Assembly: GCF_010122465.1 (NCBI RefSeq)
Contig: NZ_WLZY01000002.1
Span: 740,371 to 804,370, forward strand
Direction of reading: 5' to 3'
DNA length: 64,000 nt
From: Phytoactinopolyspora mesophila
Lineage (GTDB): Bacteria; Actinomycetota; Actinomycetes; Jiangellales; Jiangellaceae
The translations under genes and the position numbers were made by a program. This document shows positions 12,415 to 16,603 of this stretch, piece by piece. The stretch's first letter is position 1. Each line of letters opens with the position of its first letter. Under the pieces are notes generated by a model. It was not told where the DNA came from, ran no database searches, and saw nothing but the letters and a program-made list of their open reading frames with translations.

Positions 12415-12499
12415 GTAATTTGACCCTACACGTCGCCTTCCGGCCGTGACACGTGACCAGGTAACGGCGACGTGTCGAATCGGTGCTCCCTCCGATCCC

Positions 12500-13111
12500 T
12501 CAGCGCCACTTCGCGGGACGGTTGTACGTAGCACCCGGCACGGTGACGACGTCGGGCAGTTGAGCGGCTTTGATACGGCCTGCGCCGATGGTGAACGAGG
12601 CAGGCATAAGTGCGCGCAGATGTGCCGATGTTCGACGAGGTGGGAAAGCGGCCACGGCGAAGAGTTCGGGGTCGATGGACTGAGCCGTTCTGATTGCCGG
12701 AGCGAGATCACTGTCGGCGCTGATGAGTAGCGCGGTGGTCATGGCTTGACGGGCGGCGTCGGCCACGAGCGCGGTAGAGATGTTGACGTCTGTTTCCTTC
12801 TCCTCATAACTGGTCCAACTCATTCTGCACACGCGGCACATCATTTGTTTCCGCTGGTAGCGTCCATAGACAACCTCGAGCGTTGCGGGGTAGCTATTGG
12901 CGAGAGCCTTGATGTATGTGTCTTGGCGGGCCTGGCCATCAGGGTCGTCGAGCACGCTGGCGGTGAAGTACTTCACCGCCACCAAGCGATCGCGCGGCCG
13001 CAGCAGCCGGGCAAGGGCGACAAGATCAAGCCAGAGGTAGCGCCGGCCCCATTTCTCGTGGATGCCGTGGTAGAGGTTGAAACCATCCACGTAGACGATG
13101 AGATCCGACAC
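12500..13111 (-). CDS. NYN domain-containing protein (PIN-like RNase fold)
   Basis: A 203-residue protein opening with IVYVDGFNLYHGI, the first acidic motif of NYN domains. KETDVNISTALVADA and ALLISADSDLAPAI supply the remaining conserved acidic residues. A CRVC pair near residue 93 might help bind a metal. The fold is a metal-dependent ribonuclease and the RNA target is unknown. The GTG start has a strong AGGAGGG site. Codons look less GC-rich than those of the neighbours and it is flanked by an AT-richer gap, so acquisition by transfer is possible. Confidence 0.85.
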   Translation of the reverse strand: MSDLIVYVDGFNLYHGIHEKWGRRYLWLDLVALARLLRPRDRLVAVKYFTASVLDDPDGQARQDTYIKALANSYPATLEVVYGRYQRKQMMCRVCRMSWTSYEEKETDVNISTALVADAARQAMTTALLISADSDLAPAIRTAQSIDPELFAVAAFPPRRTSAHLRALMPASFTIGAGRIKAAQLPDVVTVPGATYNRPAKWR

Positions 13112-13176
13112 TTGCCCTCCTCGATCTTGTGCCGATGATTGTTACACCGAGGACTGACAAGCTTGCATGTATTTGC

Positions 13177-13193
13177 GTCTAGTTGCTCTAGAC
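13177..13193. promoter_or_regulatory. Short perfect dyad GTCTAG-N5-CTAGAC
   Basis: A 6+6 nt inverted repeat with a 5-nt spacer lies in the AT-richer gap upstream of the NYN gene. It could be an operator for the NYN gene or for the short RNA on the other strand. This is inferred from symmetry only. Confidence 0.35.
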
Positions 13194-13237
13194 AGATCCG
13201 GTTGATTGCCTAGTTGACCCAAACTGCCCAACTTGAC

Positions 13238-13266
13238 TTGCTCATTCTGCGGAGGTGCCCTACGCT
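13238..13266 (+). promoter_or_regulatory. Predicted promoter of the short RNA
   Basis: A -35-like TTGCTC (13238-13243) is separated by exactly 17 nt from a -10-like TACGCT (13261-13266). A stronger TTGACT overlaps at 13233-13238 but would give a 22-nt spacer. Transcription would start near 13273. Confidence 0.5.
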
Positions 13267-13272
13267 GGTCGT

Positions 13273-13332
13273 AGACCCCACCACGCTTCAGCGAGCGTGG
13301 CCCGACGGCCCTCTTCGGAGGGCCGTTTTTGT
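13273..13332 (+). ncRNA. Candidate small RNA with two hairpins
   Basis: Between the predicted promoter and a strong intrinsic terminator there are only about 60 nt and no reading frame. The stretch folds into a first hairpin at 13281-13300 (CCACGCT/AGCGTGG) and then the terminator hairpin. No plus-strand gene lies upstream that would need this terminator, because both flanking genes are on the minus strand. That makes an independent short transcript the simplest reading. The function is unknown. The 337-nt gap 13112-13448 holds nothing else except the dyad at 13177. Confidence 0.5.
13305..13332 (+). terminator. Strong intrinsic terminator
   Basis: A perfect 9-bp stem (ACGGCCCTC/GAGGGCCGT) with a TTCG tetraloop is followed by TTTTTGT. 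The U-run is on the plus strand, so it ends a plus-strand transcript. Confidence 0.85.
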
Positions 13333-13448
13333 ATGACAGGGGGCTTGGTGATGCTCGGCGCGATGAACCCGACTGTCGATACCAGAGTGCGCTTGACTCG
13401 GTGGCGGTCCTTGTAGCCGGAGCCACGTGGACCGCCGCCACGAGCTGA

Positions 13449-14315
13449 TCACCAGGTGTAGAACTCGCTGAAGGTCTGGCCGCCGTCGGTGGAAACGACG
13501 ATCGACTGACCCAGCGCCACATACACCTCGCCGTCCGGCGCAACCGTCATCGCCTGCGGACGCTCATCCAGGTCGGCGCCCGCTTCCCAGGTTTCGCCTC
13601 CGTCGGCGCTGCGATGAACCGCCCCGTCCGGCCCTACGCCGACGAGCTGGTCGGGTTGCGGCCAGTCGATGAGCATGATGATGGGCGCGTCGTCGAGGAC
13701 GTCGAACTGGGCGCCGCCGTCGGCGCTGAGCGCGGGCCCGTCCTCGGTGGTGACGATCACCGACTCGGCGTCCTCGGGGCTGATGGCGACGTCGGCCATG
13801 GCGAGTTGACCCAGCCGTTCCCAGTCTTCATGGTCATCACTGCGCATGAGCTCAGCCGTCGCGCTGTCGAATCCGTAGACCACGCCGTGCTTGGCGTCGA
13901 GCGCATGGAAGTCGACCTCACCCATGAGCGATACCTCGTCCCACGTCTGGCCTCCGTCGGTGCTCTCGAGCAGCCCGAGATTGGCCGGCAGATCGGTGCG
14001 GCTGTTCGGATGGCCGCTGGCCAGGAAGCTGTCGGTGTCGACCACGGTGAAACCCATGAAGTCGTGGTCGTCGTCGCTCACCTCTGTGGCTTGGTCCTCG
14101 GCAACGGTGAACAAACCGTAGTGGGTGGCGACGTAGAGGACGTCGTCGGCAACACCGAGCCCGTGGATGTGACCGAAGTCGCTCTCAGCGGCGTCCGCGG
14201 ATTGGCCGGAAGCCGACTCATCATGGTCGTGATCGTCGTCGCCGCCGCAGCCGCCAAGGAGGAGTCCGGCCGCGACAGCGGCGGCCAGGCCCGTCGGACG
14301 GCGTCGCGCGTTCAC
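13449..14315 (-). CDS. BNR-repeat lipoprotein (F510_1955-type)
   Basis: A 288-residue secreted lipoprotein. A signal peptide ends in the lipobox LLLGGC, then comes a His/Asp-rich stretch (GGDDDHDHDESASG) that may bind metal. The rest is built of BNR/sialidase-like blades with Asp-box variants (STDGGQTWDEV, SADGGETWEAG, STDGGQTFSEF), predicting a beta-propeller outside the membrane. No sialidase active site is evident, so a hydrolase role is not supported. The ATG overlaps the DUF305 stop by four bases, so the two are coupled. Confidence 0.8.
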   Translation of the reverse strand: MNARRRPTGLAAAVAAGLLLGGCGGDDDHDHDESASGQSADAAESDFGHIHGLGVADDVLYVATHYGLFTVAEDQATEVSDDDHDFMGFTVVDTDSFLASGHPNSRTDLPANLGLLESTDGGQTWDEVSLMGEVDFHALDAKHGVVYGFDSATAELMRSDDHEDWERLGQLAMADVAISPEDAESVIVTTEDGPALSADGGAQFDVLDDAPIIMLIDWPQPDQLVGVGPDGAVHRSADGGETWEAGADLDERPQAMTVAPDGEVYVALGQSIVVSTDGGQTFSEFYTW

Positions 14316-15644: not shown

Positions 15645-15705
15645 GTTGATCATGGGCAAGTGCAGGGATCGAGTCGCTGCAAGGGTGTTTTCGCCCATGA
15701 TCAAC
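15645..15705. repeat. Palindrome family C, divergent copy
   Basis: Thirteen-nt arms GTTGATCATGGGC/GCCCATGATCAAC flank a 35-nt loop unlike the loops of the other three copies. The right arm supplies the TGA stop of the minus-strand hydrolase at 15701. Confidence 0.85.
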
Positions 15706-16603
15706 GAGCAGGGTGGCGGAGCGCCGCGACGGCGAGCTTCGCCGCGTGGGCGATCGAGGCGTCGGCGCTGGGCAAAATCAGCCGGCCGCGTGTCGAGAGG
15801 GTGAACACAGCGATCGCATATGCCTCCCCATTGGGATACTCGACGACGCCGCACTCGTGCCGCAGCGCGACGAACGTCCCTGTCTTGCCGGACACGACGA
15901 CGTCGTCGAACGGGAACGCGGCGGCCAGCCGTTGGGTCCAGACCTGCTGAGCCATCACCGAGCGGAGGAAGGCGCACTGTTCGCTCGATGCAGCCCTGTC
16001 TTGCCAGACGGCTTCGAGCAGCTTGGTCATGTCGAGGCACGTTCCTACGTTGTTGGCTGCGCGCCCGGCGTCGAAGGTGCTGAGTTCGGACAGCGTCGCC
16101 GCGTTTTGAACGTGCCGGATGGCTTCGTCGAGCGACGCGCTGCCGAAGTCGTCGACCAGGGACGCATACAGATCACGAGTGCCGCCGACGACGCGGGTCG
16201 CTGTGAGGCCGATGTCCGCGAGCATCGCGCTGATCCGGCTCGCCCCGACGAGGTCGAACAGGGCATCGGCGGCCGCGTTGTCGCTGACGGTCATCATCGA
16301 TCGCACCGCGTCCCGCCAGGACAACGTGACCGGATCGGTCATCGCCGCGATGCCGGTCGACCCCGGAGTGCGTTGCGCCGGATCGAATGTGGTGGTGGCG
16401 AGCGGGTCGATCTCGCCTGCGTCGACCATGCGGGCGAAGGCAACCGCCAACGGCAGTTTGAACACCGAGGCGAGCACCACTTGTTCGTCCGCCTGGAAGC
16501 TGACCTCGCGGCTTCGGTCGTGCAGGTCTGTGGCATGCAGACAACCGAAGACACCGGCGTCTTGGAAGGATCGCTCGATCTTCGCGATGGTGGCCCCGGT
16601 CAT
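15701..16603 (-). CDS. Class A beta-lactamase-like serine hydrolase
   Basis: A 300-residue protein with SVFK (Ser46-Lys49), SDN (107-109) and KTG (240-242), the three motifs of class A penicillin-recognising enzymes. No signal peptide is seen, and I see no clear equivalent of the class A deacylating Glu motif, so true beta-lactamase activity is uncertain. A cytosolic esterase, amidase or peptidase role is equally possible. A LysR gene lies 24 nt upstream on the same strand and probably shares its transcript. The stop codon lies inside a palindrome arm. Confidence 0.82.
   Translation of the reverse strand: MTGATIAKIERSFQDAGVFGCLHATDLHDRSREVSFQADEQVVLASVFKLPLAVAFARMVDAGEIDPLATTTFDPAQRTPGSTGIAAMTDPVTLSWRDAVRSMMTVSDNAAADALFDLVGASRISAMLADIGLTATRVVGGTRDLYASLVDDFGSASLDEAIRHVQNAATLSELSTFDAGRAANNVGTCLDMTKLLEAVWQDRAASSEQCAFLRSVMAQQVWTQRLAAAFPFDDVVVSGKTGTFVALRHECGVVEYPNGEAYAIAVFTLSTRGRLILPSADASIAHAAKLAVAALRHPAR

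Follow-up and report, generated by a model that had tools for sequence, protein, structure and literature searches.

The DNA analyzed here is a stretch of 64,000 nucleotides of Phytoactinopolyspora mesophila (contig NZ_WLZY01000002.1, positions 740,371 to 804,370), hereafter the window. The intergenic space 13112-13448 is bounded by two minus-strand genes, one coding for an NYN-domain protein (12500-13111) and the other for a BNR-repeat protein (13449-14315). Between them, a small RNA element is located on the plus strand (13268-13336). It contains an unpaired, conserved ACCCC motif at the 5' end of the RNA (13275-13279; alignments A2 and A3), hairpin 1 (13281-13300; CCACGCUU-CAGC-GAGCGUGG) and hairpin 2 (13304-13327), which has 10 bp and a UUCG loop and is followed by UUUUU. 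Hairpin 2 and the U-tract form an intrinsic terminator (13304-13332, plus strand), as indicated by a terminator scan and by pairing in the alignment. The 68-nt fold had an energy of -32.5 kcal/mol, compared with -20.0 +/- 2.8 kcal/mol for shuffled sequences (z -4.45), and none of 200 shuffles equaled it. The transcript would extend from about 13273 to 13332, or about 60 nt. These results agree with the initial annotation, which had described about 60 nt folding into two plus-strand hairpins, a TTCG-loop terminator, and the absence of any upstream plus-strand gene needing that terminator; the neighbors on both sides are indeed encoded on the minus strand. The element is present in a single copy in its own genome, so it is not a repeat element, and no tRNA or tRNA-like remnant was found. 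Elsewhere in the window, 15701-16603 codes for a class A beta-lactamase-family protein (Beta-lactamase2).

The element belongs to a widespread and apparently undescribed family of structured RNAs, as judged from comparison of related loci. In alignment A3, a clean subset of 30 sequences with a stated structure, 95.8% of the cells were paired and 12 of 15 pairs had changed on both sides, with a covariation score of 0.527; shuffled alignments scored 0.177 and slid ones 0.123 or less. Double-sided changes were observed in all seven pairs of the hairpin 1 helix among these 30 relatives, and 99.2% of the alignment cells of hairpin 2 were paired. RNAalifold returned no structure for the mixed alignment because the loop-length classes were out of register. 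Covariance model R2, built from 21 sequences with the genus of the window excluded, gave the window element a score of 46.4 bits (E 4.3e-12) and recovered other held-out copies as well; model R1 gave 59.2 bits for the window element, which was part of its training set. The search of related genomes proposed in the initial annotation thus recovered the hairpins, and the conservation beyond this strain on which that proposal depended was found, with covariation. Weak model matches of about 15-36 bits (e.g., L224, L227, and L286) resemble ordinary terminators and were left out of the counts.

Hairpin 2, the U-tract, a C-rich linker, and the unpaired ACCCC immediately 5' of hairpin 1 are shared across the family. 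Two classes can be distinguished, class A with the linker CCGACG and class B with the linker YGC and a UGC tail before the U-tract. The copies of the same genus, in Phytoactinopolyspora halotolerans and P. alkaliphila, are 87% and 86% identical to that of the window, and each adjoins an NYN homolog. No Rfam match attained the gathering score, whether in the window or for the RNA of 18 other loci, and a relaxed search gave only sub-threshold matches to isrB, adapt33_3, and asX2.

The initial annotation had mentioned in passing that the neighboring gene codes for an NYN-domain protein of a family of likely ribonucleases. This assignment was confirmed, and the remark turned out to be central, since the NYN gene has the RNA as its conserved partner. 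The protein (203 aa; minus strand) matched Pfam NYN (PF01936, 31.7 bits), the sole Pfam family given, and the PADLOC profile HEC-09 (PDLC04163) over residues 2-203 of 203 with an E value of 1.3e-67. The same profile was matched by all 11 aligned homologs and by all 8 further homologs. The AlphaFold model (pLDDT 94) was closest to 2qip (Z 18.0) and to the NYN domain of MARF1 (Z 16.0; rmsd 2.6 over 147 residues), and a search of PDB sequences with the NYN profile gave no match. N12, D108, D133, and D135 are invariant in 122 homologs, and D9 is conserved in 121. The protein therefore has both the fold and the conserved acidic metal-binding residues of an NYN domain, and is a predicted Mn/Mg-dependent ribonuclease. 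Since the nuclease residues are invariant, the family is expected to be active as a nuclease. HEC-09 is listed in PADLOC as a candidate defense family by genomic context only, and no anti-phage activity of HEC-09 was reported in the literature found. Contrary to a defense role, the presence of HEC-09 in one survey of Pseudomonas syringae was correlated with phage susceptibility, not resistance (PMC12447246).

The pairing of the RNA with the NYN gene is well supported by comparison of loci. A two-hairpin, terminator-ended element was observed in the flanks of nearly all of 11 NYN homologs, even at 32-56% NYN identity. The locus sample comprised 80 bacterial and 42 viral NYN loci, and in a neutral scan covering 118 NYN genes the element was found beside NYN at 107 of 118 loci. 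The corresponding counts were 11 of 327 for control places at these loci and 2 of 118 for shuffled flanks. The difference from the control places corresponds to a Fisher p of about 4e-76, for loci that are not fully independent. Inspection by eye or the covariance model revealed the RNA at most of the loci where the scan had found none. Among 100 genomes from the related family to which genome G037 belongs, a strong RNA match was present in 12 of 25 genomes with NYN vs. 1 of 75 without it (p 6e-8). The named hosts belong to Actinomycetota, Chloroflexota, Latescibacterota, Armatimonadota, Planctomycetota, Acidobacteriota, Bacteroidota, Pseudomonadota, Atribacteria, Deinococcota, and Leptospira. 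L071:4652-5034 has four tandem RNA copies with a spacing of about 105 nt; every copy matches the full model and ends in a terminator of its own. Two tandem copies are present in each of L072, L075, and L110.

The sequence TTGCTC-17 nt-TACGCT (13238-13266, plus strand) had been proposed as a promoter with 17-nt spacing. Its -10 box was upheld by position, while its sequence is a poor consensus match and a sigma-70 consensus scan of the window copy found no promoter. The window box (TAnnnT) lies 8 nt upstream of the ACCC motif, and the copy of a related species has TATAGT at this place. A TAnnnT box was found 6-10 nt before the motif in 36 of 42 divergent and convergent copies, compared with 4.3 expected from shuffles. 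The same test was not significant for loci with the RNA in the NYN leader, many of which are from Bacteroidota. Bacteroidota promoters differ. Because the window box is weak and the consensus scan gave no match, the promoter call depends on position more than on sequence. Across the 118 loci, the RNA was divergent from NYN in 55, in the NYN leader in 44, and convergent in 8, and this variety of placement indicates that it is an independent gene rather than a cis-attenuator. The claim of a free-standing small RNA is therefore supported by the held-out model match, the covarying hairpins, the conserved -10 position, and an orientation independent of NYN.

The NYN-RNA pair appears to move as a unit. 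In a genome of the same genus (G003), asnB and the BNR gene are adjacent and both NYN and the RNA are absent, whereas in the window the pair lies between these genes. In two other species the pair likewise adjoins asnB, and the RNA can be to either side of NYN. Within the genus, the region upstream of asnB (window 12430-13448) is variable: three species have NYN and the RNA there, one has the BNR gene directly, and another has an apparent transporter gene. NYN homologs were also found on 3.5-kb Escherichia coli plasmids, on plasmids of Klebsiella, Leptospira, Thermus, and Pseudomonas, and in a Mycobacterium prophage close to the integrase and repressor. In several enterobacterial plasmids the leader terminator is visible, with hairpins more diverged than those of the modeled families. 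The RNA family, its layout for independent transcription, its co-mobility with NYN, and the intact nuclease residues are, like the pairing, well supported at the level of sequence comparison.

Several further observations concern these loci. Three NYN loci (L048, L083, and L090) apparently adjoin tRNA-like sequence, as integrative elements do, and in Mycolicibacter arupensis (L058:4736-5124) the pair adjoins the RNase P RNA gene. HEC-09-type NYN genes on Klebsiella plasmids (e.g., OW849454.1:37887-38555) are annotated as '6-hydroxy-3-succinoylpyridine 3-monooxygenase HspA', which is probably a transferred misannotation.

Type III toxin-antitoxin systems (ToxIN, CptIN, TenpIN) consist of an endoribonuclease and an RNA partner in the order promoter, RNA, terminator, nuclease, with tandem RNA copies, in a plasmid or phage setting. 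At the locus described here a structured RNA gene likewise adjoins a predicted endoribonuclease gene; the leader-type HEC-09 loci have the same order, some have tandem RNA copies, and plasmids and phages are shared settings. The nuclease, however, appears to have an NYN rather than a ToxN fold; ToxN is not in the list of best structural matches (2qip, MARF1 NYN), an absence that is no proof against a ToxN fold. The RNA also differs in having two hairpins and its own terminator, in being mostly single-copy and in often lying on the opposite strand, and its inhibition of the nuclease is putative. A tandem-repeat antitoxin processed by the toxin was not found, as the window has a single copy and only some loci have two to four, with their own terminators.

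The nearest experimentally supported analog of the NYN-RNA pair is AbiF-RCd22, in which the ncRNA neutralizes the toxin through direct binding (PMC12373285). AbiF (Abi_2) and the abiF motif RNA (RF03085/RCd22) of Clostridioides difficile resemble it in combining one toxic nuclease-like gene (putatively toxic in the case of NYN) with a small terminator-ended structured RNA, in the leader layout, and in the prophage and mobile-element setting. They differ in that the HEC-09 protein has the NYN fold and not Abi_2, no Rfam family including RF03085 reaches threshold at the HEC-09-linked RNA, and the RNA at HEC-09 loci is often divergent or convergent. The single-gene PADLOC entry HEC-09 (Hma-embedded candidate) matches the NYN protein over its full length, but it is a protein profile only and does not include the RNA partner. 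The type III CRISPR NYN ribonuclease of Bacteroides fragilis also acts on RNA in an immune setting (PMC11346440), whereas the HEC-09-linked RNA is no crRNA, and no cas genes were seen next to the annotated HEC-09 loci examined.

We propose, with a confidence slightly better than even, that the RNA holds the HEC-09 ribonuclease inactive and that its release leads to addiction and/or abortive infection. In the P. mesophila strain, an RNA of about 60 nt, comprising the 5' ACCCC, hairpin 1, the short C-rich linker, the terminator hairpin, and the U-tract, would be transcribed from its own promoter. It would bind the NYN ribonuclease encoded beside it and would inhibit rather than activate this putative toxin. 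If the RNA were lost, or disturbed by a phage event, the nuclease would be free to cleave RNA of the cell or of the phage, and the outcome would be plasmid or prophage addiction and/or abortive infection, the latter a possible defense role.

An alternative that is possible but clearly less probable is that NYN needs the RNA as a cofactor, guide, or sensor and works only as a ribonucleoprotein containing it, e.g., to recognize phage RNA; NYN itself may trim the RNA. The near-universal pairing is consistent with this, as an essential cofactor or guide would likewise always accompany NYN, and so is the conservation of the unpaired ACCCC and the C-rich linker. A CRISPR-associated NYN ribonuclease cleaves ssRNA in a Mn-dependent manner and has been proposed as a crRNA trimmer (PMC11346440). 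However, a guide would be expected to contain a variable guide-like stretch, which is absent here: the loops are short, the terminator ends the transcript, and the stems change by compensation, not like spacers. The RNA is also retained beside broken NYN genes and in places without NYN, a pattern less expected of a cofactor. It was found without a nearby NYN at L193:1501-1569 and L278:1501-1567, and probably at L223 (around 1501-1570); the L278 copy has a TATAGT box, and no NYN is detectable in its genome (G537). Such copies may be anti-addiction copies or remnants. The NYN gene is broken by an in-frame stop in G241 and by a frameshift in G490, and in both the adjacent RNA is intact. Intact NYN genes lacking the RNA were hardly ever encountered, with a few loci ambiguous (L253, L248). 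This lopsided pattern, together with the invariant nuclease residues, fits a toxin and its antitoxin better than a cofactor, and so favors the inhibitor role, although the asymmetry is based on about five cases and some of the broken NYN genes are possibly assembly errors.

It is unlikely that the element acts only on NYN expression, whether by attenuation in the leader or as an antisense RNA. The position in the NYN leader with a terminator ahead of the gene, in 44 of 118 loci, as in Bacteroidales, is in line with such control. In most loci, the window included, the RNA is divergent or convergent downstream and does not overlap NYN, so that attenuation of NYN is impossible there; orphan RNA copies also exist. 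A riboswitch or attenuator was therefore ruled out as the general role. We regard as a shade more doubtful the view that NYN processes or degrades the RNA as a maturation enzyme and that the RNA is a trans-acting regulator with targets elsewhere. The NYN fold and invariant nuclease residues are compatible with processing, but the RNA has no conserved single-stranded seed apart from ACCCC and the linker, and the hairpins are wholly different between lineages and still adjoin NYN. That a terminator and a hairpin meet by chance in an RNA with no function is scarcely credible: the window copy has no sigma-70 consensus promoter, but the covariation, the held-out model match, the positional conservation of the -10 box, and the NYN association all argue against chance.

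Beyond the mechanism of inhibition and release, we consider it probable that HEC-09 is a widespread two-part RNA-nuclease module, distributed across many bacterial phyla, plasmids, and phages, and that it represents a new class of NYN toxin or immune effector under RNA control. The open-access literature searched, which excluded preprints and most subscription papers, contained no description of an NYN-RNA pair or of an NYN type III toxin-antitoxin system. The RNA partner would have escaped notice because it has no match in Rfam and the defense-finder model does not include it. The RNA model allows immediate detection of the partner in genomes, and the tiny E. coli plasmids bearing a homolog (such as WP_074581898) would facilitate tests in laboratory strains. 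If the proposal is correct, a common protein-only candidate ('NYN domain-containing protein') would become a testable RNA-protein system, and the NYN domain would be another unrelated nuclease fold under the control of a small RNA, after ToxN and AbiF.
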